Shown here piece after piece: positions 4,130 to 19,314 of a stretch of DNA of 20,755 nt. Under the pieces are notes generated by a model, which was not told where the DNA came from, did no database searches, and worked only from the letters and a program-made list of their open reading frames with translations. A program made the position numbers and the translations under genes. The stretch spans positions 1-20,755 of IMG/VR virus record IMGVR_UViG_3300049484_000380. One strand, 5' to 3'. Source of the DNA: a virus. How positions within the stretch are numbered: the stretch's first letter is position 1; each line of letters begins with the position of its first letter.

Positions 4130-5730
4130 TACGTATCGCCTCCTTTCATAAAGATTGGGTGAAACGCTACGATACGAACGTTTTCTCCGGTGTTCACGTT
4201 ACGGACGCGATAGCGCAACTTCGTCCCGCTGACGGTGAACCACGCCCACGCAATTTTAGCAGAGCCGTCAGCTGATCCACCGATAGTGAGGTTCTTGCCC
4301 GTGGTCCACGAGAGGCCGCCATTCTTTGAGTATTCGACGAGAAGGGTCGCCGGTCCCATATCGTCGTACTCGATGCCGATGCCCGAGAGCGACACCATTT
4401 GGCGTGGGCCTTCGGCGACGTAATCCTTCGACTGCCACTCTACCGGGATGGCCGACGATTGATCGTTGACGCTGTTAACGTCCATCTTGCAAATGGCGCC
4501 GTCCGACAGCCCGAGAAGATACAACCCACTATGCACCTGCGAGAAGGCCGAATCGAACGAGTACGCTTGCGCATCCATCGTGCCAGATGTACCGTCGATC
4601 GTCGTTGCGGCGACTGTTGGGTGTTCAAGAATCGAGCCGACGCCCGCGCCGTACCAGAACGACGTCCACGTGTTACTGGGTTCGTGGTAGACGTAGAAGG
4701 TTCCGGCTGACGACTCGTCGCCCATTGGAACGCCGAGGATGTACGACTGCCAAGGCGCCAAATAATAACCGACGCACATCGACAGCCGATTCGTGTTCGC
4801 CCCGTCGAGAATGGCGCGATCAACTTTGCCGAAGCCAATCGGCTTAAACTGTGAGCCGTCGTAGGAGAACACGCCGTCTTGAAAGAGCCCGAAGTGAATG
4901 ACGCCGTTCGACGCGAGAGAGCGAGACGCGAACAGCCCCCGCCCGCGCACCCACGCTTGATCGTACTGAAACGGCGTTGCGCCGTAGCCGGTCGCGACGA
5001 TCTTCGTGATCGACCGCTCCTTATAGACGAGCATCGTGCTACCGATACGAGCGGCGTTCATGATGTAGTCGTCGTTGTCGTTGAGGTCTTTGTAGCCGCT
5101 TCCGACGCCGGTCCAATCCGTGATGTCGCCGTTGATGCAGTAGCGATGACGTTGCGCTTTCGTGTCGCCCGTCTCGTACGTCTTGAAGAGGTTGAGGCGG
5201 TTATTGAAAACACGCACGATCCACGCCGCTGGGCAGTTTGCGCTCAACGTCAAGTAGTTAGCGACCGTCGATGGAAGATACTTAACGGTATCAACACCTT
5301 GAGAGAAACAAAATCGTTCGGTATACGGCCACACGCACATTGAAAATGGGTGATAATCATCGCCCGTCAACGACGCGCCACCACTAGCGGCGATCTCCGT
5401 CCACGTACCGGAACTGTAGTAGTACACCTTATCTTTGGTAAGGGCGATGGAGTACGTGCTTCCACTCCGAAGGTAGAAGATGCCTCCACCCAAGATGATA
5501 CCGTTGAGAGAGCTGCCGAGCTTCGTCGATCCCGGGCGCTTCGACAACTTTCCGTCGCGCCACATAAAGTTACGAATAAGCGGGGACGACGACTCGTCAA
5601 TCTCCGTTGGAGGCATGTCGGCAATCATCATAGACTTGCCGGGAATCGACTTTGATTGCTGCGGCGAAGCGGCCTGTAACGCCTTCGTTGAAAGACCGCT
5701 GAACGGATTGGCTGAAAGTCGTGATTTCAT
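4126..5730 (-). CDS. Podovirus-like tail hub / DNA stabilization protein
   Basis: This 534-residue protein is rich in beta strands and aromatic residues, like the propeller-type tail hub proteins of short-tailed phages (P22 gp10, T7 gp12). Those proteins close the head after packaging and build the tail channel. The N-terminus has an LIRNFMWRDG segment followed by KRPG, typical of this group. Mid-protein are a MLVYKERSITKI segment and a GVFSYDGSQFKPIG blade-like motif, followed by a YEPSNTW-like element (seen as YHEPSNTW). The frame stays open upstream to 6237, but that part lies inside the collar gene. The start at 5730 is chosen because it comes one base after the collar stop (TAAC then ATG), although the SD is weak. 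The family call comes from recalled patterns, not a search. Confidence 0.72.
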   Translation of the reverse strand: MKSRLSANPFSGLSTKALQAASPQQSKSIPGKSMMIADMPPTEIDESSSPLIRNFMWRDGKLSKRPGSTKLGSSLNGIILGGGIFYLRSGSTYSIALTKDKVYYYSSGTWTEIAASGGASLTGDDYHPFSMCVWPYTERFCFSQGVDTVKYLPSTVANYLTLSANCPAAWIVRVFNNRLNLFKTYETGDTKAQRHRYCINGDITDWTGVGSGYKDLNDNDDYIMNAARIGSTMLVYKERSITKIVATGYGATPFQYDQAWVRGRGLFASRSLASNGVIHFGLFQDGVFSYDGSQFKPIGFGKVDRAILDGANTNRLSMCVGYYLAPWQSYILGVPMGDESSAGTFYVYHEPSNTWTSFWYGAGVGSILEHPTVAATTIDGTSGTMDAQAYSFDSAFSQVHSGLYLLGLSDGAICKMDVNSVNDQSSAIPVEWQSKDYVAEGPRQMVSLSGIGIEYDDMGPATLLVEYSKNGGLSWTTGKNLTIGGSADGSAKIAWAWFTVSGTKLRYRVRNVNTGENVRIVAFHPIFMKGGDTY

Positions 5731-5731
5731 G

Positions 5732-6742
5732 TTAGTACTTGATGATGTAGTTAAGGATGAGAGTCGGCTGAATATTATTGTGTGCTGATCCACTTCCAGA
5801 ATATCCCGTTTCAGTCGCACCGGATACTGGAAAGCCGGTCGTGGTTCCAAATCCACCACCTGTGCTTGTTTGAAGTGCCGTCGGTGAAATCGTGTGATTG
5901 TGAGACGCCAACTCCGCAACAGAAAGCGTATGCGTTTCTTCACCGCCAGTCGCACCGAGAGTATCGCCGTCCATCCCCGACCCAGTTGCCGTGATTCGAT
6001 CGGCTGACGTACCACCCATGTCGTCTTGACCAGCGACGACTCGGCCACGAAGATCGGGAAGGTTAAAGTGGGTACCGTCAGCGGAACCGTACGTCGTGCT
6101 GAGGACAGCGAAGAGCGCGGCGTAATCGGCCCGAAGCAAAGACTGCCCGTAACAGAAAAGCCAACCGGAGGGAGCATTCCAACCGGCGTAAGGAAGCACA
6201 GCGCCGACTGGAACAAGCGGACCCCACGCACCTCCACTATCTTTCGACTCGATTACGCCCGAGTTATCTCGGAGGCCGTAACCGTTTGCGCCCGACGTCG
6301 CACCAAAATTAATGTGCGCGTTCGCGGCGAGGGACATATTCCCCGCTTCGAGCATCAGCGTGAAAGCATTCGTGATCGTCGCGTTCGCGCCAGCGGCTGG
6401 AGGCCCCGCAATCGCAACCGTCGCGGCCGTCGTGAGCGTGGATGCGGCCGCGAACGCGTACGTTGGAAGCGTCACTCGCATCGCACGTTGAGTTGTGAGC
6501 GCTCCCGTTGACCAAGTCATCGTGCGTGCAAGATCGACCAAGAAGTCGACGACCTCGACGCTCGCAGTCAGTCCTGTTTCAGCGATGGGCTGTATTCGTG
6601 ATCGCCCCGTGTTCCACGCAGCACTGCCGGCCGCCAGGCGTTCGCGCAGGTCCAGCTTCAGCGCGCGAATCACGTCGTCCACGGTCGAAACCATGGCCGA
6701 TCCTAGTGGCGCTGTTTCGTCCCAAGTATTCGTGAACGCCAT
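5732..6742 (-). CDS. Tail fibre with phage tail-collar domain
   Basis: This 336-residue protein is a probable receptor-binding or short tail fibre. Its N-terminus (1-40) has the FTNTWDETAPLGS and VDDVIRALKLDLRERL segments common to fibre proteins of short-tailed phages, probably for virion attachment. A Thr/Ala-rich shaft follows. A clear phage tail-collar domain lies at about 177-240, with a GAVLPYAG strand, SGWLFCYGQ, and FNLPDLRGRVVAG. The C-terminus has ELASHNHTIS (about 277-286), recalling the HxH metal site of T4 gp12, and ends in NNIQPTLILNYIIKY, a typical collar-fibre ending. The ATG at 6742 has an AGGAGG SD that merges with the upstream stop (TAGGAGG). The hub gene begins one base after the stop. 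Confidence 0.88.
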   Translation of the reverse strand: MAFTNTWDETAPLGSAMVSTVDDVIRALKLDLRERLAAGSAAWNTGRSRIQPIAETGLTASVEVVDFLVDLARTMTWSTGALTTQRAMRVTLPTYAFAAASTLTTAATVAIAGPPAAGANATITNAFTLMLEAGNMSLAANAHINFGATSGANGYGLRDNSGVIESKDSGGAWGPLVPVGAVLPYAGWNAPSGWLFCYGQSLLRADYAALFAVLSTTYGSADGTHFNLPDLRGRVVAGQDDMGGTSADRITATGSGMDGDTLGATGGEETHTLSVAELASHNHTISPTALQTSTGGGFGTTTGFPVSGATETGYSGSGSAHNNIQPTLILNYIIKY

Positions 6743-6751
6743 CTTGTCCTC

Positions 6752-7429
6752 CTACGAAAGGTCAGGCGCCAAGGCAAAATCGGCGTACGCATCCTCGACT
6801 TCTTCGGACGTCGTGATAAGCTCAAGCGCTTCACGGCGCTTCGTCGAATAAAAGCTCGATCGGTCTAGCACCCCAATCGTGGCGTTGATGTCGGCGGCCG
6901 CGCCCCACACGACAACCCAATCAAATTCGGGCGGAATGACGGTTACATCAGGTGCGTTTGAGAGCTGATTTGGACGGAGTCGCCAACGTAATTGAATCGA
7001 ATAAACGGCGTCGGGCGTCGGCTCCAACTCAATCCCATCCCCAGTGTGAGCGAACCAGTACGGCTTCCCTGATGTCGTAAACTTTCCGTCGAAGTCTTGA
7101 ACAGAGCTGGCTTTGATACGGCGACTGTTAGTTCGGTCGCGCATTGGAGAAAAGATAGCCATTGGATCAATGATGCCGCCAACAATCGCATCACCTCGAT
7201 CAAACCCCGTCGTAATCGTCGTTGAGGCAAATGGGTAGAACCGTTGAGCGGCCACCGTAGAGAACCGCCCCGGCCCCTGGTCCAACTCGCGGAACGATAC
7301 TCCACGAAGCGCGCAGACTTGGCGATACGCTTGATTTATCGCCTGCGCGATCTCGGTGTCGAGGTCGTCACGATTGTTAATCGTGCGCTTGACCAGCGTC
7401 TGCATTTGTTGAAAAGTAAGGGCGCCCAT
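6752..7429 (-). CDS. Phage adaptor-like protein (head-tail connector)
   Basis: This 225-residue protein resembles adaptor proteins that bind under the portal ring and join head to tail in short-tailed phages. The N-terminal 40 residues have the helix pattern LTFQQMQTLVKRTINNRD followed by IAQAINQAYRQVC, typical of this group. The C-terminal part carries IPPEFDWVVVWGAAADI followed by a helix with many charges, also characteristic. The middle (about 60-160) is beta-rich. Its ATG at 7429 shares one base with the upstream stop (TAATG), so translation is likely coupled. The collar fibre follows 9 bases later. The assignment rests on pattern recognition. Another minor virion protein of similar fold is possible. 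Confidence 0.72.
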   Translation of the reverse strand: MGALTFQQMQTLVKRTINNRDDLDTEIAQAINQAYRQVCALRGVSFRELDQGPGRFSTVAAQRFYPFASTTITTGFDRGDAIVGGIIDPMAIFSPMRDRTNSRRIKASSVQDFDGKFTTSGKPYWFAHTGDGIELEPTPDAVYSIQLRWRLRPNQLSNAPDVTVIPPEFDWVVVWGAAADINATIGVLDRSSFYSTKRREALELITTSEEVEDAYADFALAPDLS

Positions 7430-7698
7430 TATTCATCCCCATGAAGTCCGCCAGGAGGCGACGGCGAAGTAACAGTTACTGGGCTAACGTGATCGTCGTC
7501 ATCGTTGGAATCGGCGACCTCCGTCGGATCACGTTCTAGCGGAACACGGGACAGCCGACGGTAGTAATCCGCGCCCTTTTCGTAAAGGCAATTCGCCACG
7601 CATACAATAAGTCCGTGCTGCGTCGTCATCTTCGAAAGTGGATATTCGAAGCCACAACGAGAGCACTCTGCCCACTGTTCACCGACGCGCCCGGCCAT
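7429..7698 (-). CDS. Small zinc-binding phage protein
   Basis: This 89-residue protein has four cysteines spaced as a treble-clef or ribbon zinc site: C12 and C15 (CSRCG), then C33 and C37 (CVANC). The second knuckle has three residues between its cysteines instead of the usual two. A short helix with KGADYYRRL follows, and then a Pro/Asp/Ser-rich tail. Proteins of this type, with a CxxCG plus YPLS opening, are frequent near phage head-tail genes, but their job is unknown. The ATG at 7698 lies 2 bases after the upstream stop without a strong SD, and its stop overlaps the adaptor start (TAATG). It may help assembly or bind nucleic acid. This is inference. Confidence 0.7.
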   Translation of the reverse strand: MAGRVGEQWAECSRCGFEYPLSKMTTQHGLIVCVANCLYEKGADYYRRLSRVPLERDPTEVADSNDDDDHVSPVTVTSPSPPGGLHGDE

Positions 7699-7700
7699 CG

Positions 7701-8000
7701 CTAACCCAATGTAATGTTGAGTTCACCACTAGAGAGCGTCGGCACGATCAGCCCTTGAATCCAACGCTCGACCAACTCCGATTCTGAGTAGTGAGAGCCC
7801 GTGGCATCCGCCTTCCACACCCGTCGTCCATCGGCGTCGGTGACGACCGCAGAGTGGCCCGCAGCAGCTGATGGCGCAATCCACCGGATCGACTTGACGT
7901 ACACGCGAGTCTGCTTGCCGTAGATTTGCGCCGTCAGTTCGGTTGCACCAGCGTCACCGCTTTCGATGACGATTGTATTGCCTGAGAGTTCAAGTGCCAT
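7701..8000 (-). CDS. Small conserved phage virion protein
   Basis: This 99-residue protein is beta-rich. An YVKSIRWIAPSAAAG segment is followed by a D-DGR-VWKADATG strand pair, and then by a helix with ERWIQGLIVPTLSSGEL. I recognise this layout as a frequent short protein in phage structural operons, but no function is established that I can name. The ATG at 8000 is one base after the stop of the large repeat protein, and a CGGAGGG SD lies within the end of that gene, so expression is coupled. It may bind the repeat fibre or be a minor virion part. That is speculation from adjacency. Confidence 0.72.
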   Translation of the reverse strand: MALELSGNTIVIESGDAGATELTAQIYGKQTRVYVKSIRWIAPSAAAGHSAVVTDADGRRVWKADATGSHYSESELVERWIQGLIVPTLSSGELNITLG

Positions 8001-8001
8001 G

Positions 8002-10377
8002 TTATGCCCTCCGCCAGATGTTCATGAAGCGTTTGCCGCCGCTAGATTGGAACCACCCTGAGTACGAGCCGGGGCCAGCAATCAAACGATACGTTCGCTT
8101 CTTTTCCACGTCCGCGCCAGAAATCTCGTAAGCTTCACCCGCGGCAGCGATGGACATTCCGTACGACATTCGAGCATCGACGCCCGTGATGGCGTAATCG
8201 TCGTCGCCGATCACAAGCTCTTTATCGTATATGGGATGTGTGAGAGTGACGTTATCTCCTGAAACGGCGTAGCTTTCGTCTCCAGCAACGACGCCACGAA
8301 CTGAAGAGATTGAAACCGCCGTTCCTTCAACGCTATAAGATCCGGCGTCGGGGACGAACTTCTTAACAAATTTCAGCGTCGCTTGTGCGCCGTCGATCGC
8401 GTAAACGCCTTCTCCGATTGACAAAAAGTTAATTATTGACATCGAAATGGCGTCGCCAGACAATTCATATTCGCCCGAATCGGCGGTAATTGAAGGCGGC
8501 GTTCCAGCATCCAATCCTGCGGCGACTCCCGTTACACTGTAGTCGCCAGCTTCGATCGCGAGTTTGTACGTCCGTCCAACAAAAACTTCGGCGCCGACTA
8601 TTTCAAATAATCCGACCTCAGGCTGAAGAGCGACTCGATTAAGTTTCAGGGCCGCTGCAGAAAGCTCCATCTCATATGAATGATGAAGCCCCGGTGGAAG
8701 AAGCAAACCGCGCGCATCAATAAGACGGTCAACTCTGAAATTTACTTCATCGCTTCCAGCATCTGTATAGGTGTACGATCCGGCGCCGATTCCAACTTGA
8801 TAACCGGAAGCAACTCCGTGGGCGAGAGCCGCAGGCGTTCCTGTAATCGCAAACGCGCCCGCAGCACACGGCATCCCAATTTCAAGCTTAAGCGTCGTCC
8901 CGCCCGTAACGGCGTAACTCCCCGCTGCTGCCGTCAAGCGATACCGAATGTAAAGAAGGTTGGCCGACGTACCTGTTATAAAGTAGTTACCGGGGTCAAA
9001 CCAAACATCGTGAACGAGGCCGGCGGCGCCCCCCGTAATCGCGTACGATCCGCCCGCGGCCGTGAATGACGCTTGACTATACTGAAGAGTGACGTTTGAT
9101 CCAGTAAGATCGTAGTCACCATAATCTGCCGGGACGCTTCGAGTCATCGCAACGGCGGTGCCCGAAAGCGCGTACGCCTCTCCGCCAGCGGAAATTGACT
9201 TTGCGCCAGGAGTAGCGAGGGTTAAGGTGGCAGCCGTTCCGGTTAACTCAACAGAGCCGCCTTCAAGCGAAACGTAACCGACTCTTTTTAATGTAACATT
9301 CGTTCCAGTAAGCCCGTAAGAGCCTCCTGCAGCATCGCCAGCCGATCCACGAATTAACGAAACATCCTGTCCGCTAATCTCGTATGATCCCGCTCCCCCG
9401 GCGACACTTTGGCCCCAACGGAGTGAAGCGGCGGTTCCTTGAATTGGGTACACGCCGCTGTTTACGGGAATGCTTATGGTGAAGGCTGCTGCAGTACCGT
9501 TTAACGAATATGATCCATCGCCCCCGGTAATAGTTCTTGCCGTCGCGCCGAACGTAATTGCTGAGCCAGAAACGCTATACGAATCAGTGGCGGGAACGAT
9601 TTTCTTAGTAAACTTGAGGGTTACATCTGTTCCGCTAATCGAATACGATCCGGCACCAGCGGGAAGCTTAAATGTGTGTTTGAGAGTGGCGTCGGTGCCC
9701 GATTGAGAATAAGAGCCGGCCTCGGGCGATAGTGGACCAGCGCCCTTTCCCATTGTGACGGCGCCACCCGTGATCCCGTAGACGGCCGACAGCATCGGGA
9801 GAGCAATCGCCATTGCGACAGCCGTACCAGTAACCCCATACGATGTCGTTCCGGCGACAATGGGCTCTCGATACGTTACTTCAAGCGTAACGAAGTCAAT
9901 ATAAACGTCGGTGTCAGTACCGGTTGAAAGACACCCAATCGCAACACCGAAGTCGGCGTCCTTTATCCAAGCGGCGGTGAGCGCGTTGCTCCAAAGATCG
10001 GTCGTTCCTCCAAATGTATAGTTGGCTTGAGAGGTGGTTAAGGCTTGAGGAGTCGAGGCTTTATTTGTTCCGACCTTCGCTCGTGAGGCGTCAAGAAGCT
10101 GAACGAGGTCGATCGACCCAGTGCCGTTTGCGTACCACGCACGCACCACGCACGTTACACCGAGGATTTGAGAGCCGTTGGGGATTGCGGAGAAGTCGAA
10201 GTTGTACGCCTTCAACACATACGACTGGTCGTCGGTGTCGTATGAAGTAGCAGTAATGCTAGCGTAATTGGTATCGTCGGCAACAACATATCCAGCGTTG
10301 GACCAGTTGTTGTCGGACCACGGCGATTCAGATGCCGTTGCGGTCGAACCTGGATATTTTACGCCAGTAGTTGACAT
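8002..10377 (-). CDS. Large repeat fibre protein (about 26 repeats of 22 residues)
   Basis: This 791-residue protein has two parts. Residues 1-170 form a beta-sandwich-like head rich in Asp, Thr, Tyr and Trp, similar in style to jelly-roll domains of phage and surface proteins. From about residue 177 to the end it is built of repeats with the core G-S-Y-x-I/V/L-x-G-T-x-x-x-L, a period of roughly 22 residues, and the Tyr and Gly nearly always kept. The period suits a beta-solenoid or stacked hairpins, hence a rigid fibre. There is no signal peptide or membrane segment, so it is probably virion-bound. The last repeat is broken off and followed by a basic tail ending FMNIWRRA. It starts 3 bases after the upstream stop with a poor SD. 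A role in adhesion is inferred. Confidence 0.82.
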   Translation of the reverse strand: MSTTGVKYPGSTATASESPWSDNNWSNAGYVVADDTNYASITATSYDTDDQSYVLKAYNFDFSAIPNGSQILGVTCVVRAWYANGTGSIDLVQLLDASRAKVGTNKASTPQALTTSQANYTFGGTTDLWSNALTAAWIKDADFGVAIGCLSTGTDTDVYIDFVTLEVTYREPIVAGTTSYGVTGTAVAMAIALPMLSAVYGITGGAVTMGKGAGPLSPEAGSYSQSGTDATLKHTFKLPAGAGSYSISGTDVTLKFTKKIVPATDSYSVSGSAITFGATARTITGGDGSYSLNGTAAAFTISIPVNSGVYPIQGTAASLRWGQSVAGGAGSYEISGQDVSLIRGSAGDAAGGSYGLTGTNVTLKRVGYVSLEGGSVELTGTAATLTLATPGAKSISAGGEAYALSGTAVAMTRSVPADYGDYDLTGSNVTLQYSQASFTAAGGSYAITGGAAGLVHDVWFDPGNYFITGTSANLLYIRYRLTAAAGSYAVTGGTTLKLEIGMPCAAGAFAITGTPAALAHGVASGYQVGIGAGSYTYTDAGSDEVNFRVDRLIDARGLLLPPGLHHSYEMELSAAALKLNRVALQPEVGLFEIVGAEVFVGRTYKLAIEAGDYSVTGVAAGLDAGTPPSITADSGEYELSGDAISMSIINFLSIGEGVYAIDGAQATLKFVKKFVPDAGSYSVEGTAVSISSVRGVVAGDESYAVSGDNVTLTHPIYDKELVIGDDDYAITGVDARMSYGMSIAAAGEAYEISGADVEKKRTYRLIAGPGSYSGWFQSSGGKRFMNIWRRA
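8025..9849 (-). repeat. Coding array of about 66-base degenerate repeats
   Basis: The DNA encodes about 26 tandem repeats of roughly 22 codons in one frame. Each has the protein core GxYxxxGTxxxL. Well-kept units read AGSYSISGTDVTL, GGSYGLTGTNVTL and AGDYSVTGVAAGL. Divergent units carry a changed core: HHSYEMELSAAAL, VGLFEIVGAEVFV and a unit with an inserted acidic loop (AGSYTYTDAGSDEVNF). At DNA level the units are well diverged and I see no long exact repeats. The array is therefore old and held by selection on protein, not a recent expansion. Confidence 0.8.
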
Positions 10378-10380
10378 TAA

Positions 10381-10962
10381 CTATGGCTTTCGATAACGGA
10401 GCCAACCGTGGCCGCCGTGAAGGAGATTGGACTCGGCGCCGCTAATTGAATATGAAGAGGTGCCAACGGTGAGGGTCGTCGCCCCCCCGCCCGCCGTGTA
10501 GGTCATGTATAACGACACTGACCATGCTAATTCGGAGTCTTTTTCCAGAGTCGTTGGAGACGCATAACTGTTTTCTGCTCCCGTGCCTGCATTATCGACT
10601 GCGGTTTGGTTCGCCGATCCCGCCTCGTAATATCCCCATGTACCGTTGCCACCGGAGATGAGGCCAAAATAGTATTGGGTATTCGCGGACACCGACAACG
10701 CCGACCCGAAGGTGAACGTCGTCAATGCGGCAGAGGCTGGAGCGGCGTTCGCGTTCGTTGCCCCTACAAAGACGCCACCTGTCGTCCACACGACGCCTTT
10801 ACAGTTCGTCGGTCCCCCCTGGCAATAGAACCGAATATCCGTGATCGCGGTGCAGTCGGCGGGCGTCGTGAACAGGCATCCGGCGGCATCGTTGGTGTCG
10901 AGCACGCCATACGACCCGCCCGGGGTTCCGAGAATCATATTGGCGTTTCCAAAGGTCGCCAT
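10381..10962 (-). CDS. Jelly-roll virion protein ending in one fibre repeat
   Basis: This 193-residue protein is mostly beta strand. About residues 1-155 look like a jelly-roll or carbohydrate-binding-type domain: a FYCQGGPTNCKGVVW segment, then SVSANTQYYFGLISGG and a strand with AWSVSLYMTY. Residues about 165-180 (TLTVGTSSYSISGAESNLL) are a single copy of the repeat that fills the next gene, so the two proteins share a module. There is no signal peptide. The ATG at 10962 has a GGGAG SD about 9 bases upstream. With the 791-residue protein 3 bases downstream it probably forms one adhesion or fibre unit, with the shared repeat as a docking end. Binding to sugar is inferred from fold style only. 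Confidence 0.75.
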   Translation of the reverse strand: MATFGNANMILGTPGGSYGVLDTNDAAGCLFTTPADCTAITDIRFYCQGGPTNCKGVVWTTGGVFVGATNANAAPASAALTTFTFGSALSVSANTQYYFGLISGGNGTWGYYEAGSANQTAVDNAGTGAENSYASPTTLEKDSELAWSVSLYMTYTAGGGATTLTVGTSSYSISGAESNLLHGGHGWLRYRKP

Positions 10963-10983
10963 CTATTTGCGCTCCCGCTCTAT

Positions 10984-11595
10984 CTAATACAGTGACCCAA
11001 TGGGGGACGTTTTCACAAGGAATTGGTCGATGAGGTATTCATACGATGACCCATGATAGGTCGTTAGTCCGACACCATTGGTTCCCGAATAACTGCCCGG
11101 AATCGGCAACCCGCTCCAGGTGATGCTGTTTGTCGTTGGCTGGACCGGAGATTGACTGATCTTGACCCACCCCGATCCGTTCACCCGATTCACGTACCAC
11201 CAGATGTAATAGGGCTGACCGATCACGAGCGCAGTTGTGCTGGCGGACGTTTCTGTGCCCCCGCACCGCATCTTGAGATTCCCAGTGTTCCCCAGCTCCA
11301 GGACCTCGTGCGCCTCGTAACTCGCCCCACCATTCCAAAAGTGATAGAGCGTGAGAAATTCCCAATAGCCAGTGATGGGGAGGTCCAGCACCTTCATCAG
11401 AAACGCGCCGTAAAGTTCCGTATACCCAGCGCCGGTGTCAAAATAACAGACGGCCCACGTGCCTTCCGTGGCATCGTCTTTCATTCGAAGTGAATAGGTT
11501 CCCCGCAGCGGAGTGACCGCGTAGGACGGATCTGCCACCCCAACCGCTCCGGCGTAGGTCTGCCATTTCGAGGTTTCCCCGTTATCGAACGGCAT
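10984..11595 (-). CDS. LamG/concanavalin-like jelly-roll protein
   Basis: This 203-residue protein has the strand pattern of a LamG or concanavalin-A-like domain. The N-terminal segment ends with GTYSLRMKDD, a Phe/Leu-rich strand set follows (YGAFLMKVLDL), then GNLKMRCGG and an YYIWWYVNRVNGSGWVKI strand that is typical of such lectin-like folds. These domains usually bind sugars or surfaces. No signal peptide is visible, and the domain seems to start abruptly at residue 3. That could mean the N-terminus is short or that upstream sequence was lost. Its ATG overlaps the stop of the small upstream gene as TGATG, so the two are translated together. It likely belongs to the virion adhesion block. 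This is inference. Confidence 0.75.
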   Translation of the reverse strand: MPFDNGETSKWQTYAGAVGVADPSYAVTPLRGTYSLRMKDDATEGTWAVCYFDTGAGYTELYGAFLMKVLDLPITGYWEFLTLYHFWNGGASYEAHEVLELGNTGNLKMRCGGTETSASTTALVIGQPYYIWWYVNRVNGSGWVKISQSPVQPTTNSITWSGLPIPGSYSGTNGVGLTTYHGSSYEYLIDQFLVKTSPIGSLY

Positions 11596-11801
11596 CAGAT
11601 CCTCCGCACAAACTCAACCACGGTGGTTTTCAGCCGGGCCACGATGGACACCAGCCACGACCAATTCCGCGTCGGGCGCACACTGTGGAGAATCCACCAC
11701 ACGCTGAGCTTGGTGGAGAGACGCTGCGGCAGGCCCGTCCACAGGAACAGGTTGACGAGGTTGCTCCACAGGATGCGTAGGGTCGTCAGGAGAAATGACA
11801 T
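11595..11801 (-). CDS. Trp-rich basic small protein
   Basis: This 68-residue protein is of unknown family. It has six Trp, many Leu, Val, Arg and Lys, and two amphipathic or weakly hydrophobic stretches (about 3-22 and 33-62), so it may sit at a membrane. Two features support it as a gene. Its stop overlaps the next start as TGATG. In addition, 58 of its 68 codons end in G or C, clearly more than the competing frame of the beta-helix gene that covers the same DNA. The SD before the ATG is weak, and an alternative ATG in frame lies at 11840. It could be an accessory to the membrane-anchored beta-helix protein encoded just upstream, but nothing shows this directly. Confidence 0.6.
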   Translation of the reverse strand: MSFLLTTLRILWSNLVNLFLWTGLPQRLSTKLSVWWILHSVRPTRNWSWLVSIVARLKTTVVEFVRRI

Positions 11802-13161
11802 GTCGCGCCGTCCGTTTCTGCTGGCGGTATGCCATCGCACAACCGGCTGTCAAGAGACTCACGGCAATCGCTATGGGGATGATCCATGGGAGCAACGATC
11901 GCACGGTGAGTGTCACGACGCCCACCGGAGGCGTGGCCCCTCCGGACGATTCAAAGTTCTGGAAGACGGCGAAGTCTCCCGCAACCAACGTATATACGCC
12001 ACGATTATATCCGTCCGAGGCGTTCTTATATCCCAAGGAGCTTGACGTCAGGAGAAACCCGGCCCAGGTTGTAGGTGACGCGCCTCCGGTCCATGTCGGG
12101 GTGCCGGTAAGGTCGTTGCTTCCCCAGCCGTTGACGTTGGTACTTGCCGAATCGTGTAGGTTGTAACTGACAACGCATCCACTTCCGCAATGGTCCTGAA
12201 CTTGGCTTCCGTCAACGATGGCGCTGTTGACCCAGATATTGTTTCGGATGATCCACCCTGTATTCGATCCGCCGCTTTTGCTCCCAAAGCTGCTGAGAAT
12301 ATCGTGGAAGGTATTGTGTTCGATCAGCATCCCCGCCATGTCACCAATTTGCAGCGACTGGTATCCGAGGCTATTTGACGAATTGAAGGCGTTGTTGAGA
12401 ATCTGATACCCTTGGCCACCGTCATAGATACCCACGTTGACGGTGTTGTTCTTGAAATAATTCCCGGCAATCGTGTTCGGCCCACCGCCTCCATTGTCCT
12501 GGAATACGTCTACGTGATTCCCGCAACTCCCCTGGACAAAATCGGTAAAGGAGTTACCAACGCCAATAAGGACTCCCCCGGTGCCCCCGAGGGTGCAGAT
12601 GCCGTCTGAACAACTCGATCCCCCCGTGAAGACCGAGTTAGAGATGATGATACCGCTCGTGGAGCTTGCCGTGTAAATGCCAATCATGCACGGCCACGTC
12701 CCCTGCGGGACGTTATTCATCGTTAATTGGTCAAAGAGCAGGTCCCAGTTATAGGTACTCCCGCAACTTTCCCCTCGGATGGTGATCGCATCGGTGATCG
12801 TGACGTTGACGACCTGAATATGCTGGGAGCATTCCATGACATCGAGTCCGTTGAGGTTGACGTCCTCAATCCGTACATACTTGGAGTTCCAAAGCTGGAT
12901 TCCGTTAATCGTCGCCCCGCGAGTGTTGGTGGATCGCACAGTCACGTAATTGGTTTTTGTGATGTTGGCGATGTCTTGATAGGCATAGGAACCATTGTTG
13001 AGGCAGATGACCGCCCCGGCCGACGCGCTGGAGATTGCGGACACGATATTGGCACCGGGATTGAGTGTGGTGGTACAGGCGGCAGTCCATGCGGTCGGGA
13101 CGGAGACGCAGAGCAGTCCTGCCAATCCCACGAAAACTGAAACGAGATACTTTGTGACCAC
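11614..13161 (-). CDS. Exported right-handed beta-helix protein with C-terminal membrane anchor
   Basis: The frame encodes 515 residues. Residues 1-28 are a Sec signal peptide: Lys near the start, a hydrophobic core, and a small-residue end before Cys29. About residues 50-400 are a right-handed parallel beta-helix, with short strands and many stacked Asn/Gly/Ser turns (for example VRIEDVNLNGLDV, IIRNNIWVNS). Such folds bind or cut polysaccharide. No catalytic set is identified. Residues 424-445 are a transmembrane helix followed by RQQKR, so the protein would sit in a membrane with the helix outside. The GTG start at 13161 has an AGGAG SD. The tail after residue 453 overlaps the Trp-rich gene in another frame and looks non-native, so the original stop may be lost. 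Export is odd for a virion protein. Confidence 0.8.
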   Translation of the reverse strand: MVTKYLVSVFVGLAGLLCVSVPTAWTAACTTTLNPGANIVSAISSASAGAVICLNNGSYAYQDIANITKTNYVTVRSTNTRGATINGIQLWNSKYVRIEDVNLNGLDVMECSQHIQVVNVTITDAITIRGESCGSTYNWDLLFDQLTMNNVPQGTWPCMIGIYTASSTSGIIISNSVFTGGSSCSDGICTLGGTGGVLIGVGNSFTDFVQGSCGNHVDVFQDNGGGGPNTIAGNYFKNNTVNVGIYDGGQGYQILNNAFNSSNSLGYQSLQIGDMAGMLIEHNTFHDILSSFGSKSGGSNTGWIIRNNIWVNSAIVDGSQVQDHCGSGCVVSYNLHDSASTNVNGWGSNDLTGTPTWTGGASPTTWAGFLLTSSSLGYKNASDGYNRGVYTLVAGDFAVFQNFESSGGATPPVGVVTLTVRSLLPWIIPIAIAVSLLTAGCAMAYRQQKRTARHVISPDDPTHPVEQPRQPVPVDGPAAASLHQAQRVVDSPQCAPDAELVVAGVHRGPAENHRG

Positions 13162-13218
13162 GTCAGCGTCTCCTATCCCACTCTTCCACCTTGCACCGCA
13201 CCCACGAGAGGAAGGCGT

Positions 13219-13581
13219 CTAGTTCACGGTAAGCAGGACGTCTCCCGCAGGAAGAGCTAAAGGGAAGTCTTTCCCCGCCACGTTCGACCACGTTCCAAAC
13301 TGAATGGAGGTGGGATCGTTCGCGTACATGAGGTTCCACGCCCGGATGCGATAGCAATATTTGTTCCCCTCGACGGGCGTGTTGTCGATATAGGTCTTGA
13401 CGTCCTTCGCCGTCTCGCCAATCTTCACGAAGTTCGTCGGCAAGGGCGTACACACCCCAGGAGAGCGTTCGATGAAATAGCCCGCCTCGTTGGCGATGGT
13501 GTCGGTCCACGTCAGCGTGGCCGTGGCGGCGAAGGCCGGGACGGCGCAGAGAACGAACAGGAGAGCAATCACGATCTTCAT
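13219..13581 (-). CDS. Secreted fibronectin type III protein
   Basis: This 120-residue protein has a clear signal peptide, MKIVIALLFVLCAVPAFA, with an AFA cleavage site before residue 19. The mature part is one fibronectin type III domain: ATLTWTD as strand A, AGYFIERSPG with the usual I-E-R, then KTYIDNTPVEGNKYCYRIRAWN, the canonical Y-D plus Y-R-I-R-A-x-N signature. The remaining 40 residues have no recognised motif. Its destination is the periplasm or outside the cell. The ATG has a GAGGAG SD that overlaps the end of the upstream gene. It is followed after 57 bases by the exported beta-helix gene, so both probably act on the cell surface. It has no anchor of its own. A partner for the beta-helix protein is plausible. 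Confidence 0.8.
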   Translation of the reverse strand: MKIVIALLFVLCAVPAFAATATLTWTDTIANEAGYFIERSPGVCTPLPTNFVKIGETAKDVKTYIDNTPVEGNKYCYRIRAWNLMYANDPTSIQFGTWSNVAGKDFPLALPAGDVLLTVN

Positions 13582-13583
13582 GG

Positions 13584-13859
13584 TTATCTCCTCAAACGAA
13601 AGTGACCCATATCAGCAATAACAGTAACTTCACCGCTATCGCCAAACTCTTCGGAGCCGTTCCAAACTTTCAGCTTCGCAAAGTAAGTTCCAGGCGCTGA
13701 AAAAACGTCGTGGATGTCAACCTCTGATATTGCGGCAGCGTAGGCGTTCATGTTCGGCCACGACCCTTGCGACGTTCCCCAATACAACCGAAAGTAGGTA
13801 AACGGGTCACCGGTGGCAGCGAACATTAACTTCCCGGTATTAAACGATCCAGCAGGCAT
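13584..13859 (-). CDS. Small beta-sandwich-like protein, function unknown
   Basis: This 91-residue protein is beta-rich, with several aromatic strands (FTYFRLYWGTS, then GTYFAKLKVWNGSEEFGDSG). The second strand pair is reminiscent of a PKD or Ig-like domain, as found in phage virion surface proteins. No signal peptide or catalytic motif is present. The frame remains open upstream to 13907, but the start at 13859 is chosen because its ATG shares one base with the upstream stop (TAATG) and GGTGAG lies in front. The end carries AGGAGATAA, which gives the SD for the fibronectin gene. Role unknown. A virion decoration is a guess from fold style. Confidence 0.65.
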   Translation of the reverse strand: MPAGSFNTGKLMFAATGDPFTYFRLYWGTSQGSWPNMNAYAAAISEVDIHDVFSAPGTYFAKLKVWNGSEEFGDSGEVTVIADMGHFRLRR

Positions 13860-14218
13860 TATCTCACCGCAATAGGCGCACCAAAGATGCGCCCCGGCTC
13901 GGCCCACACTCTACGATGATGGCAGCCGCAAATCCGGCACACATACGTTTTCAAGTCGTACTTGCGGCTCTTGAAGATGAGATTACGAGGGTCTTGGCAG
14001 CAATCCTTGACTTGACCGTTTTGAAACTTCATCTGCTGACGGTCGTACAAAAGAAACTGTGCCTGATTCCAACGATCGGCAATTTCAGCATCCGTCTGTC
14101 CGACGGTATGCGCCGTACAACTCGGGCAACGAATCTCCCACACCTTACTATCAGTTTGCGTCAGCGCGAGAGATTCGCTGCCACAAGAGCACGGACGAAA
14201 TCGCTTTGAGGTCTGCAT
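13859..14218 (-). CDS. Double zinc-ribbon protein with Lar-like N-terminal half
   Basis: This 119-residue protein has two cysteine clusters. The first resembles the Lar restriction-alleviation ribbon: PCSCGS (C10, C12), W27-x-I-x-CPSC (C31, C34), then a helix with TDAEIADRWN (42-51), the usual Trp-Asn end. The knuckle is CxC instead of CxxC. The second is C73/C74 with a DPRNL motif and C94-C97-C99 followed by HH, a pattern I associate with small phage proteins of unknown role. The start at 14218 is preferred over an upstream ATG at 14278 inside the neighbour because TAAGGAG lies directly in front. It may bind DNA or protein. Anti-restriction activity would be inference from the Lar-like half only. 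Confidence 0.75.
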   Translation of the reverse strand: MQTSKRFRPCSCGSESLALTQTDSKVWEIRCPSCTAHTVGQTDAEIADRWNQAQFLLYDRQQMKFQNGQVKDCCQDPRNLIFKSRKYDLKTYVCRICGCHHRRVWAEPGRIFGAPIAVR

Positions 14219-14228
14219 CGCAGACTCC

Positions 14229-14654
14229 TTACGCCAGGGTGAAGACGCTCGCTCCGAAGTCAACGGTGAAGGTCTCACCGGTGTTGACGGTGACGGCAGA
14301 GCCGTAATCCCACCACGCGATCAGCGGATCGGCCGGCGACGTCTGAGTGTCGTTGTAGAGGGCGATGTACTGCAGCGCGCCGAACGATCCGCCCGAGGCG
14401 GTCCAAACGACGTCAACAGCGGTCAACGTCGCGGTACCGGTCGTTTCGGTGTAGTCGTTCTGCACGTCGGAGCCGCCAGACGGATAGCCGTTCTGGGCGG
14501 TGATTTCGGCGAGGTCGGTCTTCACCGCATCAGCGGACGCCGAAGGCGCCGCGTTCGACGCATACACCTTCAAAGTGTGGCCGGCCGCGTGAAGCTGGTG
14601 GCTCCCCTGACCGAGATCGAGAACGAACTCCTGGAACTTGTTGTAAGTGGCCAT
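14229..14654 (-). CDS. Small conserved phage virion protein
   Basis: This 141-residue protein is beta-rich and matches a very common phage structural pattern. Its N-terminus reads MATYNKFQEFVLDLGQGSH. LKVYASNAAPSASADAV follows, then DLAEITAQNGYPSGG. The C-terminal part has QYIALYNDTQT, PLIAWWDYGSAVTVNTGE and TFTVDFG. I recognise the type from many phage virion operons, where it lies near tail or baseplate genes, but no precise function is established that I can name. The ATG follows the glycosyltransferase stop directly, with an AGGAGGA SD about 10 bases upstream. It is a structural gene flanked by an enzyme block and accessory genes. Confidence 0.85.
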   Translation of the reverse strand: MATYNKFQEFVLDLGQGSHQLHAAGHTLKVYASNAAPSASADAVKTDLAEITAQNGYPSGGSDVQNDYTETTGTATLTAVDVVWTASGGSFGALQYIALYNDTQTSPADPLIAWWDYGSAVTVNTGETFTVDFGASVFTLA

Positions 14655-15548
14655 CTAACTTAATCCTCCTAAGACGCGGTTTTTGAGCCAACCTTCGATC
14701 TGGTTGACAACTTCAAATGGCTCGACCCACTGCGAAGCGATGTACGAATGTTCCTTCAACATCTCTGGCGGCGCCCACGACGTTGAAAGCTCAGCTTGAT
14801 GTCGAGGCCACAACATCACCGTTGGCCGCGACAACAACGTGGACAGCACCCCTAACCCACTACTAAAACCGATGTAACCATCGAGCAACTTGTGCAACTC
14901 ATAAGCCTGTCCGATTGTCGTCTTTCCGACGAGTTCGATAGCGTCCCACCGCTTCGACAACGCGAAGGTCAAATCGTCCCAAAAACCGCCGAGGAGCACG
15001 AACCGGAGGCGCTTGTCGGCGACCTCTTGCAAAAGGTCCATGAAGCGATTCCACTTCGGAGAGCGCCAAGTGTCCCACGCTTCGCTCCCGCGATAGGAAG
15101 CGGCGCTGACGCCGATCAATCGAACGCCGACATCGACTCCACCTTTGGGGTTGATGAGCTCGAAGGCCGTCTTCATGTCATCGCCCATCGTCACAACTGG
15201 ATAATGAAAGTCCGTCTTCAAGTCAGGTAGCCAATCTTCGAGCCGCTTCCCCTGCTCCAGGTGCTCGTTGCACGAAATGAACGTGCGCCCAAAGCCGTTC
15301 GTCGCCACCCCTTCGAAGGTCGTGATGTTGTTCACGCGCTGAAAGCTCAAGATGTCCTTGTAGTTAAAATCCTCGTAATCGGAGCGCACGACGCGCGGCA
15401 ACATTCGACAGAACTCGACGCTTCGGTGAGGCCATCCGTCCGCCACAAAAAGCTCGAAATCGAACTCCGGCGGCGCACAATGCAACTTGGAATAAATCCA
15501 GCTGATGTCTCCGATGCCAGACGGCACGCAAAGGCTGATTGTTTTCAT
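14655..15548 (-). CDS. GT9-like glycosyltransferase
   Basis: This 297-residue protein resembles the heptosyltransferase-type GT9 family (GT-B fold). The N-terminus MKTISLCVPSGIGDISW carries the Gly-Asp-x-x-Trp motif of that family. The second half has LRFVLLGGFWD, then ELVGKTTIGQAYELHKLLDGYIGFSSGLGVLSTLLSRPTV in two pieces, which matches the family's T-x-x-x-S-G-x-x-x-x-A/S region near the sugar-nucleotide site. Such enzymes add sugars to lipopolysaccharide core or other acceptors. Here the acceptor is unknown. The frame stays open to 15671, but the start at 15548 is chosen for its CAGGAG SD and family-like N-terminus. It is the last of four neighbouring enzymes. Confidence 0.75.
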   Translation of the reverse strand: MKTISLCVPSGIGDISWIYSKLHCAPPEFDFELFVADGWPHRSVEFCRMLPRVVRSDYEDFNYKDILSFQRVNNITTFEGVATNGFGRTFISCNEHLEQGKRLEDWLPDLKTDFHYPVVTMGDDMKTAFELINPKGGVDVGVRLIGVSAASYRGSEAWDTWRSPKWNRFMDLLQEVADKRLRFVLLGGFWDDLTFALSKRWDAIELVGKTTIGQAYELHKLLDGYIGFSSGLGVLSTLLSRPTVMLWPRHQAELSTSWAPPEMLKEHSYIASQWVEPFEVVNQIEGWLKNRVLGGLS

Positions 15549-15582
15549 GTTGTCTCCTGGGGGTAATTCTACCCCTATGTCG

Positions 15583-16548
15583 TTAAACGCCAGCCACTCC
15601 GCCGATTCGGCAGAACCCCGGTCCAATACGGTCGATCCACTTATAAATGCTTTCGACTTGCTTTGCGCCACTTTGTTCAGCGGTCATTCCCGTCGCTGCG
15701 TAAAAATCGTTCACGTACTCTTGTGACTCACCGAAGTGCCACGATTGCGCGCCGAGATGGATGAATCCTCGTCCTGGCACCGCGACGTTGAACCATCGTC
15801 CCGACGTCCACACCTGATGGCTGAACACATCATCTTCGGCCCAGTACGCTTCGGTAAAGCCTCCAAGGTCGTCGTATGCGGCGCGATTTATCATCATGCA
15901 CGCGCCAAACGGATTCTTGTAAAGGGCCGGGCACGTCGAGTACTGGGGGTGTTGCGATAGTCGCAAGCACCGATATGGGTCGTCTAGTACCTGCTCCCAA
16001 GAATCGTAGCCCATCGACTTATAGTTCTCAAACGTTGACCAGATAGGAAAGCCCACAGCGGCCAACTTCTCATTGATCGTATTACGAATGATGTGGTACC
16101 ACCGTAAACCGTCGTAGGGCGTTTCAGGAAACAGCCATGTATCGTCGTTGAGGAAGAGCACGGGGTCGAAGTCGTGACAGACCATCGTATGGATTGCGTT
16201 TTTTGCACGCCCTCCCCACGGAGTGCTATGCACAAACTTCGCCCCGTGATGCTCGCATACCTGACGGTCGCCCTCGATATCGCGCTCGTCAATGGAGTCG
16301 GACGACACGACGACGGGCAAATTCTCAGGCAACGACGACAACAACACCGACAACCGGCCGTTACTGTATCCACGATGCGTCATGATTGCAGCGCCGAAGT
16401 TATACCCGCGCAACGACGGTGCGACTTCGATAGCCGGCTGACGACGTGGGAGGTCGTAGCGTGGCCCCCACGGCCGACTTATCTCCATCTTCGGCGCACG
16501 CATCTCAACTTCTTCACTCACGCCCGGGCGCTCCCAAGGGTACATCAT
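15583..16548 (-). CDS. GT-A type glycosyltransferase
   Basis: This 321-residue protein fits the GT2-like GT-A glycosyltransferases, which use a nucleotide sugar and a metal ion. After a 45-residue disordered lead come GAAIMTHRGY and a set of helices, then VLFLNDDTWLFP with N134-D135-D136 at the place of the DxD metal motif. Later NPFGACMMINRAAYDDLGGF and AEDDVFSHQVW (237 onward) give the acceptor-side GF-E/D-x-x-x-x-ED pattern of the family, followed by an IHLGAQSWHFG segment. An in-frame ATG lies at 16605. The start at 16548 is preferred because ATGA overlaps the methyltransferase stop. The donor and acceptor are unknown. A GT9-like gene follows 34 bases later, so a two-step glycan is possible. 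Confidence 0.78.
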   Translation of the reverse strand: MMYPWERPGVSEEVEMRAPKMEISRPWGPRYDLPRRQPAIEVAPSLRGYNFGAAIMTHRGYSNGRLSVLLSSLPENLPVVVSSDSIDERDIEGDRQVCEHHGAKFVHSTPWGGRAKNAIHTMVCHDFDPVLFLNDDTWLFPETPYDGLRWYHIIRNTINEKLAAVGFPIWSTFENYKSMGYDSWEQVLDDPYRCLRLSQHPQYSTCPALYKNPFGACMMINRAAYDDLGGFTEAYWAEDDVFSHQVWTSGRWFNVAVPGRGFIHLGAQSWHFGESQEYVNDFYAATGMTAEQSGAKQVESIYKWIDRIGPGFCRIGGVAGV

Positions 16549-17147
16549 CGCCGGAATCCCCACACCGCAACACCGAACCAATATCCAAAGTGATGGGGGG
16601 CACAAGTAACGCCGTCAGTGTATTCAGGCATCTCTCGCAGGAGCTGCCAACGATGGTCGTCCTTCGTCGCATCAAACACTCCAGAGCGAACAGATGTACG
16701 GTCCCAATCGTCGAACACAACAACGGCCTCTCCCGCCAACCGTGGCGTCACCCAGTCGATGAACTCACCGTTCGTGAGCGCGTCGTGCGCACCGTCGTAA
16801 AACACAACTCCGATAGGTCGCTCGAAATTATCAAGTGCGGCAAAGGATCGCTGAAAGAAACGAACATTCTTACTAAAACCGATTGGAACGATTGCGTACT
16901 TCTCGCAAGGATCGCAGGCCACGAACGTTTTGTCTTCATTTCGAGACGCAGCCGCTTCAAGAGTGCGCCCAGCCATCGTTCCGACTTCGAGATACACCTC
17001 GTCCCGCGGCATCATACGAGCAAGGCTGTTCAACAAGTGCTCGACCCTGCTGGAGCTGAAGCCCAATCGCTTCGACAACGCTGGAAGGTACAGCCTCGTA
17101 TCCTGACGAAGAAACTCTACCGCTGCGTTCGCACTCGACCATTTCAT
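16545..17147 (-). CDS. Class I SAM-dependent methyltransferase
   Basis: This 200-residue protein has the core of the Methyltransf_24-like group. Motif I is YLEVGTMAGRTL (52-63), which binds S-adenosylmethionine. It is followed by FVACDP (75-80), the acidic strand, then VVFYDGAHD (114-122) and VVVFDDWD (142-149). The first 45 residues form a helical lead. Substrate unknown. Related enzymes in sugar clusters methylate sugars. The ATG at 17147 is supported by the strong SD AAGGAGGTG at 17152-17160, although the gene's first 191 bases lie inside the epimerase frame. The stop overlaps the next start as ATGA. It sits between the epimerase and two glycosyltransferases, so it probably modifies the same glycan. 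That last point is inference. Confidence 0.8.
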   Translation of the reverse strand: MKWSSANAAVEFLRQDTRLYLPALSKRLGFSSSRVEHLLNSLARMMPRDEVYLEVGTMAGRTLEAAASRNEDKTFVACDPCEKYAIVPIGFSKNVRFFQRSFAALDNFERPIGVVFYDGAHDALTNGEFIDWVTPRLAGEAVVVFDDWDRTSVRSGVFDATKDDHRWQLLREMPEYTDGVTCAPHHFGYWFGVAVWGFRR

Positions 17148-18144
17148 TCAGCACCTCCTTGACGCCAATCTGGCGTTTCCACGACGGGAAGTCCCGCTCG
17201 AAACGAGCGGTGTTGGTGATCCACCACTTATGATCTGCGAAGCGCGCGGGGCCGCCCCAATCAACGAAGCAACAAAGGCCAAGTTGGCCTTCGAGATAGT
17301 TGACGGCCTCACGAATACTCAACGAATTGTCGTAACCCCCGCCCATATTGTAAACGCCCGATTTGGGCGACTGTAACCATAGCAAGATTGCAGCGGTAAG
17401 ATCGACGGCCGCGATATTATCACGAACCTGGAAGCCTCGGTGGCCGTAAACCGTATACGGCTGCTCAGAAACCGCCCGCTTTACAAGATAACCGAGAAAA
17501 CCGTGCATTTCAAGAGGTGTTCCAGTCGATCCTGTGATGCAACTGCATCGAAATACGCACGTTTGCGCGCTGTAGGTGTGCGCCCACTCCTGAACCATGA
17601 AGTCAGCGGCCAATTTCGACGCGCCGAAGGGTGTTCGCGCACACGGTTCGATCGGAAAGCTCTCATCAACGCCTAAGTTGGAGATGCTGAGGCAATCATT
17701 GTCAGGAAAAACGAAGCGATCGCCTTCTTGAAAGAATAAAAACTGATTTATGAGATCGCCGTACACCTTATTCGTGCTCAAGAAGACGATTTTTGGCTTC
17801 GACGTCGAATAATGATGCGCTGTCAATATGGCCATCGTGGTTTCGACGTTCGCTCGATAGTCGATGTTGGGTGACTTAACGGAAAAGTCATGCGACGGCT
17901 GTCCTGCACAATGCACAACCGCATCAACTTCGTCGATCAACTCTTGGGCGCACATCGAAATATCCCGCTCGATTACAGAAATGTCTAAACTTCGAAGACG
18001 TTGCACGGTAGGTCGTACATCGCCGCCGAGAATACGCCCTCTAAAATTATTCTCGACGGCGATGACGGTATGCCCAAGCCGTGCCGAAATCTCGGACACG
18101 GCCGATCCAACCAAACCACCCGCTCCTGTAACCAGGATTCGCAC
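16957..18144 (-). CDS. NAD-dependent sugar epimerase (CDP-paratose/tyvelose 2-epimerase-like)
   Basis: The frame encodes 395 residues with the short-chain dehydrogenase fold. A GxxGxxG NAD loop (GAGGLVG, 7-13) is followed by HCAGQPSHDF (78-87), the STNKVYGD strand (123-130) and FGASK at 173-177 in place of YxxxK. Then come RCSCITGS, HGFLGYLVKRAV (214-225), YTVYGHRGFQVRDN and YNMGGG. The QPSHD and QVRDN elements point to the CDP-paratose or CDP-tyvelose 2-epimerase type, so it probably makes a nucleotide sugar for the two downstream transferases. The usual Tyr is Phe173. The GTG start at 18144 has a TAGGAG SD over the upstream stop. The family normally ends near residue 340. The last 55 residues overlap the methyltransferase out of frame and look non-native. 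Confidence 0.82.
   Translation of the reverse strand: MRILVTGAGGLVGSAVSEISARLGHTVIAVENNFRGRILGGDVRPTVQRLRSLDISVIERDISMCAQELIDEVDAVVHCAGQPSHDFSVKSPNIDYRANVETTMAILTAHHYSTSKPKIVFLSTNKVYGDLINQFLFFQEGDRFVFPDNDCLSISNLGVDESFPIEPCARTPFGASKLAADFMVQEWAHTYSAQTCVFRCSCITGSTGTPLEMHGFLGYLVKRAVSEQPYTVYGHRGFQVRDNIAAVDLTAAILLWLQSPKSGVYNMGGGYDNSLSIREAVNYLEGQLGLCCFVDWGGPARFADHKWWITNTARFERDFPSWKRQIGVKEVLNEMVECERSGRVSSSGYEAVPSSVVEAIGLQLQQGRALVEQPCSYDAAGRGVSRSRNDGWAHS
17152..17160 (-). promoter_or_regulatory. Ribosome binding site of the methyltransferase
   Basis: AAGGAGGTG lies 4 bases before the ATG at 17147. It is a near-perfect SD located inside the epimerase reading frame. It sets the methyltransferase start and shows that the long overlap with the epimerase is not a mis-called start. 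Confidence 0.75.
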
Positions 18145-18408: not shown

Positions 18409-19314
18409 CTACCCTCCTGACGAACCGTACACTCCGCGCCACTCGTCGTAGCCGGCAACGATGCGGAAGTACGTCTTGAACTTGGCGTCCCCGGTGTCGA
18501 AGTCGTCACTGGACTCGAACGTGGGGGCCTTGCTGATGACGACCATCAACCCCAAATCAGACTTCGGCCCGAACACGAACCACTGGTCGGTGTCGGTGAA
18601 GCGATGACTGAGGAAGTACTTCAGGTCTTCATCGGTGATCGGGTTGATCTCGTTGTTCGCCGTGTACGGCTTGTACTCGGAGTCGAGAATCTCCCGGAAC
18701 GACCAGCGGTAGCGATAGTCGCCGACGATCAACCGAGGGTTGATCGGACGCGGCATCGACACTTCGTTGAGGTTCCCCGACATCGCATCGCAAGCGGCCT
18801 GCACTGCGGACAGGGAGAAGTCAACATCGGTCGAAGGCCGGTTGGCGGCCGTACCGCCAGCAAGAAGCGCGTGAGATGTGCTACAGAGCGACTCCGTCGA
18901 AACGAAGCCACCGTAAGACGTGTTGAAAGCGTTGTTGAGGATCGACATGGAAACGATTTCCATGCGGTCCCGAGCGCTCTCAGCAAGCTGCTTCGACATA
19001 CGCTTCATCGGGCCGTAAAGGTCGAAGTCGTACATCTCACGGGTGATGCGGAAGCCGAGGCCGTAGGGCACCTGAGTCATGCGCTTCAACGAAGAGATCG
19101 TTGCATGCACATAACTGATGGCGGTACCTTCCGGCTTCTCGACGGCGCTCGGGAGCTCTCCAACCTTCATCGTCTCCTCGTACTGACGGTCGGACGAAAT
19201 GACGTTGAAGAGAACGTCGCGCTCGTTCTGCGACTTCTTGAACACGTCGAACCAGACCTTCCGAAGGCCGGGAGCGACGAGGCTAGCGAAGTTCTCAGTT
19301 CTCGCGGGAGGCAA
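18409..19314 (-). CDS. Major capsid protein, Mu gpT-like
   Basis: This 301-residue protein fits the gpT-like major head subunit family with the HK97 fold. Diagnostic parts are GLGFRITREMYDFDLYGP (about 85-102), then the helix with ARDRMEIVSMSILNNAFN, which is the N-terminal capsid helix with the N-N-A-F pair. LCSTSHALLAGGTAANRP and a set of strands follow, then HRFTDTDQWFVFG and the end YDEWRGVYGSSGG, matching the usual W-R-G-x-Y-G ending. The start is TTG at 19314: an in-frame TGA lies three codons upstream and the next Met is residue 49. An AAAGGTGG SD precedes it. Shell genes flank it on both sides. I see no separate protease domain here, so scaffold/protease is expected upstream. Confidence 0.88.
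   Translation of the reverse strand: MPPARTENFASLVAPGLRKVWFDVFKKSQNERDVLFNVISSDRQYEETMKVGELPSAVEKPEGTAISYVHATISSLKRMTQVPYGLGFRITREMYDFDLYGPMKRMSKQLAESARDRMEIVSMSILNNAFNTSYGGFVSTESLCSTSHALLAGGTAANRPSTDVDFSLSAVQAACDAMSGNLNEVSMPRPINPRLIVGDYRYRWSFREILDSEYKPYTANNEINPITDEDLKYFLSHRFTDTDQWFVFGPKSDLGLMVVISKAPTFESSDDFDTGDAKFKTYFRIVAGYDEWRGVYGSSGG

Follow-up and report, generated by a model that had tools for sequence, protein, structure and literature searches.

Predicted Sec-type export of an FnIII-type and a beta-helix protein encoded in the tailspike slot of a podovirus-type phage

Organisation of the late operon

The window, that is, the whole stretch of DNA analysed here, is an entire virus record of IMG/VR type, 20,755 bases long, and probably represents a genome fragment. 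It contains one late operon, on the minus strand, in which the major capsid protein gene is followed by a gene for a small protein, a module encoding an epimerase, a methyltransferase and two sugar transferases, three small genes, and then the FnIII-type and beta-helix genes that form the pair considered here (Table 1). The coordinates given for the two genes in the preliminary description are correct. On the 3' side of the beta-helix gene, the operon encodes further appendage-like proteins, a tail protein, a collar fibre, and a stabilisation-type protein. The capsid relatives of the window are podovirus-type phages, one of which has an annotated Pam1-type adaptor, and a search for such relatives in Acidobacteriota genomes returned one short contig only. 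Other products of the window include a 791-aa protein (8002–10377) with many GxYxxxGxxxxL-type repeat units, and a Cys-rich, zinc-finger-like protein with weak similarity to Lar (13859–14278), encoded within the virion operon.

A search with the GT9-like sugar transferase identified relatives of the window phage that have the capsid-sugar module in common, and the sugar-enzyme context to which the preliminary description had drawn attention recurs in relatives. In the relatives L004, L054, L055, and L056, the sugar-transferase module (14655–18144 in the window) is likewise located between capsid and tail genes, and it is perhaps concerned with virion glycosylation or with a change of surface sugar.

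Table 1. Features of the window that bear on the FnIII-type and beta-helix gene pair
Feature	Coordinates	Strand	Basis or remark
Trp-rich 68-aa ORF, uncertain gene	11595..11801	-	Lies across the beta-helix C-terminus, in a different frame; its stop codon shares bases with the ATG of the next gene (TGATG)
ORF of 515 codons with a signal peptide, a right-handed beta-helix and, towards the C-terminus, an apolar segment	11614..13161	-	Signal test, AF2
C-terminal apolar segment LLPWIIPIAIAVSLLTAGC, residues 423-441, then RQQKR	11839..11895	-	Mean KD 2.07 over 19 residues
Beta-helix domain, 10 Cys	11977..13077	-	Homologues: gp17 of Tunturi, L022 of IMG/VR, and a protein from each of two acidobacterial EPS loci; AF2 fold
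CGxHxDxxQ motif, candidate active or binding site	12496..12525	-	Invariant in all aligned family members
Beta-helix protein signal peptide, GTG start	13078..13161	-	Rule-based test; predicted cleavage TAA↓CT
FnIII-type protein, 120 aa, Sec signal peptide; two Cys in mature part	13219..13581	-	Shine-Dalgarno, signal test, hhalign
FnIII-type protein signal peptide MKIVIALLFVLCAVPAFA	13528..13581	-	Rule-based test; predicted cleavage AFA↓AT
GT9-like sugar transferase	14655..15671	-	Upstream landmark of the slot, conserved in relatives
Glycosyltransferase, methyltransferase-like and NAD-epimerase-like genes of the sugar module	15583..18144	-	Functions read from sequence; gene order as in L004
Major capsid protein, operon landmark	18409..19314	-	phrog_371; 21 phage records match, several annotated major capsid protein

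Export signals and predicted folds of the two proteins

Both proteins had been described as carrying export signals, and this is confirmed by a rule-based signal-peptide test, which requires a positive n-region, an apolar core, and small residues at positions −3 and −1, in combination with starts that are supported by Shine-Dalgarno sequences (gaggagataacc-ATG for the FnIII-type gene and ataggagacgctgac-GTG for the beta-helix gene). Among the 27 operon genes, these two alone pass the test. The false-positive rate is 0.3–1.1% (3/920 internal Met starts and 56/5280 shuffled N-termini), which gives a chance of about 0.0003–0.003 for two adjacent hits. None of 73 genes in three annotated, capsid-related phages passed, and in Tunturi 3 and 4 the test was passed by 3 of 103 genes, none of them an annotated tail gene. 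Because Shine-Dalgarno sequences are present at both starts, an artefact of start choice is unlikely, and it was rejected for the window pair on the strength of these sequences and of conservation in relatives. The number of Cys residues is even in the mature part of each protein (10 in the beta-helix domain, and 2 in the FnIII-type protein). Taken as sequence-based predictions, these observations support the view that the pair consists of proteins that leave the cytoplasm by Sec-type export.

The FnIII-type protein shows a remote match to host FnIII domains (hhalign probability 78, E-value 1.7e-5), no match in Pfam, and none in the annotated phages; an AF2 model from the single sequence has a pLDDT of 38. 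Searches of viral contigs with exact peptide patterns returned no close relatives of either window protein.

For the beta-helix protein, AF2 with three sequences yields the beta-helix expected from the preliminary description (pLDDT 70.5 overall, pTM 0.78); the first 100 residues have pLDDT values above 90, and the C-terminal half is uncertain. The nearest solved folds are PL6 lyases, the AlgE epimerase, inulin fructotransferase, and RbmB, where the TM scores, mostly 0.4–0.55, are generic for beta-helices. Among viral proteins, the fold is matched by beta-helix tailspikes and by proteins resembling pectate lyase. Since the nearest folds are of the lyase/epimerase type, the fold can be regarded as polysaccharide-acting, with the reaction left unspecified by the fold itself; the relation to the PL6 polysaccharide lyase family is one of fold resemblance, with no sequence match in Pfam or the PDB. 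Besides the CGxHxDxxQ motif, several Cys residues are kept by all aligned members of the family.

A transmembrane helix with basic residues on its inner side had been proposed near the C-terminus. The apolar segment and the RQQKR sequence are indeed present, but the segment is peculiar to the window phage, as homologues either stop earlier or continue differently, and the last 60 codons of the ORF (beyond 11801) overlap another frame, where coding-frame scores are ambiguous. The Trp-rich ORF in that region is possibly genuine and might encode a small membrane-active protein; no tie was found between it and the proposed surface-remodelling module.

Relatives of the beta-helix domain and occupants of the tailspike slot

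A tblastn search of 50,697 phage records with the window beta-helix returned only gp17 of Tunturi_1 and Tunturi_2, which are isolated Acidobacteriota podoviruses. The gp17 protein is of secreted type and begins with MKKLILILPLLATSLAGA↓Q. In Tunturi_1, signal peptides are found on five of the six consecutive tailspike/fibre-type genes gp12–gp17 (L012, 10371–23028), namely gp12, gp13, gp14 (tailspike/pectin lyase), gp16, and gp17. The annotation of the Tunturi_1 record does not note them, and the main text of the Tunturi paper makes no mention of signal peptides. In the uncultured virus L022, the beta-helix domain is part of a 2173-residue signal-peptide protein. Its gene closes a row of four whose products all have signal peptides, and is followed by genes for a membrane protein and an endolysin-type protein.

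The family extends to bacterial chromosomes. A profile search of genomes identified a gene in X5P2, the Tunturi host strain, whose product has a signal peptide and is 83% identical to the gp17 N-domain over 390 residues; it adjoins genes for a GT1 sugar transferase, an FkbM-like methyltransferase, a Wzy-like protein, and AsnB, and on its other side a gene for an ASH-repeat protein with a terminal FnIII domain. In a second acidobacterial genome, G363, a homologue 32% identical to the window beta-helix lies within a complete exopolysaccharide (EPS) locus; the identity to the window protein is 30–32% for the two homologues. The proposed link between an exported beta-helix and surface polysaccharide is supported by these secreted homologues in Acidobacteriota EPS loci and by the lyase/epimerase-like fold. 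With respect to recurrence of the pair in other genomes, X5P2 provides partial agreement, with an FnIII domain 1.7 kb away, but the pair was not seen in G363, and there is little to suggest that FnIII and beta-helix are regularly paired in bacteria. The family is not a generally common one in Acidobacteriota, as it was found in 1 of 297 genomes of the phylum, 3 of 250 of the family, and 3 of 399 of the class, at different thresholds.

In the relatives retrieved with the GT9-like transferase, the slot after GT9 is occupied by different proteins. L004 and L053 have a 149-aa signal-peptide protein of FnIII-like appearance and with a weak profile match to FnIII; BLAST gave no match between the L004 protein and the window FnIII-type protein. 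The slot holds a fibre-like protein with the signal MKKLWVTLLILLFAASASA in L054, and two signal-less proteins in L056, the starts of which resemble a classical head-binding domain, and one of which has tail fibre/spike PHROG matches further on. In L055, the slot holds neither of these types of protein. Because the slot in relatives holds signal-peptide or tailspike-like proteins, we assign the window pair to the tailspike slot. The window record is not among the hits of the head-binding searches, and its two proteins begin with FnIII or beta-helix.

The N-terminal part of Tunturi gp12 is homologous to that of the second gene of L022, and a profile search of solved structures with this type of domain points to tail spike proteins (1e-4) and to the "Tailspike head-binding domain" of 7eeq (0.025). 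A search with the gp12 N-terminal domain gave 19 viral loci, which include near-identical copies, and in 18 of these, with L043 as the exception, a signal peptide is present at the homologous start. In total, about 15 distinct phage proteins have a signal peptide directly preceding a tailspike head-binding homologue. Runs of four to six signal-peptide genes occur in Tunturi 1, L022, and L042, the latter with up to six in a row (2761–12379; five by score, one by eye). A tailspike with a signal peptide and gp12-type architecture is also encoded near polysaccharide export genes in a Terriglobia genome (L050, 10093–12285), in what looks like a prophage remnant. In signal-less homologues, represented by the Serratia MTx tailspike and tail proteins of Serratia MQ-4, Klebsiella KA2-1, and E. 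coli ep3, the domain is at the extreme N-terminus. In the members that bear a signal, one Cys lies in an additional N-terminal stretch and another in the PxCTVTVY strand. This Cys pair is present in 13 of 15 signal-bearing and 0 of 5 signal-less homologues (Fisher p = 0.0014, a guide only as the sequences are related), and its co-variation with the signal argues that the signal is used. The preliminary description had set virion parts against exported proteins. Because in many phages a tailspike head-binding domain follows immediately upon a signal peptide, that opposition is not supported, and an exported protein need not be a non-virion protein.

Interpretation and comparison with known systems

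We give an approximately even chance to the explanation that the window pair are extracytoplasmic, polysaccharide-acting proteins derived from the tailspike slot, exported by Sec and disulphide-bonded. Extracytoplasmic action on polysaccharide is favoured because no head-binding domain is recognisable in the pair, and because proteins of EPS loci are among its best relatives. Both genes occupy the place of receptor-binding or tailspike genes in the virion operon, and their products would exit by Sec, presumably late in infection, with disulphides forming outside the cytoplasm. The beta-helix, for which the C-terminal segment possibly serves as an inner-membrane anchor, would there cleave, epimerise, or bind the host's own exopolysaccharide, and the FnIII-type protein may serve as a small accessory or binding module. 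A likely benefit would be that surface sugar is altered before or at lysis, which could ease the release of progeny, reduce re-binding to debris, or exclude rivals. The generic fold match, the viral tailspike matches, the remote support for FnIII, and the non-conserved anchor count against this explanation.

The main rival is that the pair are exported tailspikes: as receptor-binding proteins, they would reach their folded and disulphide-bonded state outside the cytoplasm and would be captured by virions at lysis. The phage proteins with a signal directly before a head-binding homologue and the distribution of the Cys pair speak for this; the window slot is the place of tailspike-like genes in L056, and the signal-peptide block precedes lysis genes in Tunturi 1 and L022. 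Against this, the window pair has no recognisable head-binding domain and the sequences behind the Fisher test are not independent, and for the pair itself we judge such a role rather unlikely. As a wider and tentative proposal, a podovirus group that lives at least partly on Acidobacteriota might export its tailspikes by Sec, with disulphide maturation outside, its virions not being complete until lysis has brought head-binding domains into contact with released particles; the pair studied here would then be a polysaccharide-acting branch.

It is unlikely that the two proteins come from a host and act at the cell surface in superinfection exclusion or lysogenic conversion, by masking or remodelling receptors in the manner of lambda Lom, phi80/N15 Cor, or T5 Llp. 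They are predicted to be exported, adjoin sugar-modifying genes, and have a host homologue in an EPS locus, but the genes belong to the late virion operon and not to a separate moron unit, and several such genes occur in a row in plaque-forming isolates. Apolar ends occur in some virion proteins, and since the signal test used here is rule-based, the N-termini could in principle serve virion assembly or membrane contact at infection, as in injected or tail-tip proteins, instead of export. The n-h-c layout and AxA↓Q-like sites conserved over divergent phages, the Cys residues gained together with the signal, and the signal peptides of the host homologues make this quite improbable. Chance or wrong start codons, for which just the general false-positive rate speaks, are very improbable in view of the Shine-Dalgarno sequences at both starts, the low probability of an adjacent pair, and the conservation in relatives.

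Tailed phages are taught to assemble entirely in the cytoplasm. Exported phage proteins are known, as are tailspikes. In the open-access literature we found no description of signal peptides on tail fibres or spikes, on a tailspike-slot block, or in front of a head-binding domain, although absence there is not proof. Phage DGR target proteins are noted to be without signal peptides (PMC6199706). If the signals are used, either some phages send their receptor-binding parts by a separate route, or the envelope is loaded with free sugar-acting proteins; if true, this would constitute an unrecognised step in phage building or host-cell change, and it would be necessary to re-examine the output of annotation pipelines in which such proteins are simply labelled "tail fibre" or "virion structural". 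Both options are open to trial with the cultured Tunturi phages.

Among known systems, lambda Lom, phi80/N15 Cor, and T5 Llp are also exported, phage-encoded envelope proteins, but differ from the window pair in function class and genomic place, and do not form a block in the tailspike slot. PL6 lyases, AlgE, and Vibrio cholerae RbmB have a right-handed beta-helix like that of the window protein, but no sequence similarity to it was found; they are secreted and act on acidic or biofilm polysaccharide, and RbmB is encoded together with EPS genes. The EPS-locus proteins of X5P2 and G363 resemble the window beta-helix in the signal peptide, the conserved CGxHxDxxQ motif, and Cys residues, but are chromosomal and have no TM segment. 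Gp17 of Tunturi_1 and Tunturi_2 is also a signal-peptide beta-helix protein, homologous over about 375 aa and encoded in a virion operon near tailspike genes, but gp17 is the longer protein; it includes domains of chitobiase C-terminal-like and Ig-like type, and has no C-terminal TM. Classical P22/Pam1-type tailspikes have no signal peptide, and the window pair lacks their head-binding domain, but they occupy the same operon slot as the pair, and in many other phages the homologous domain is found behind a signal.
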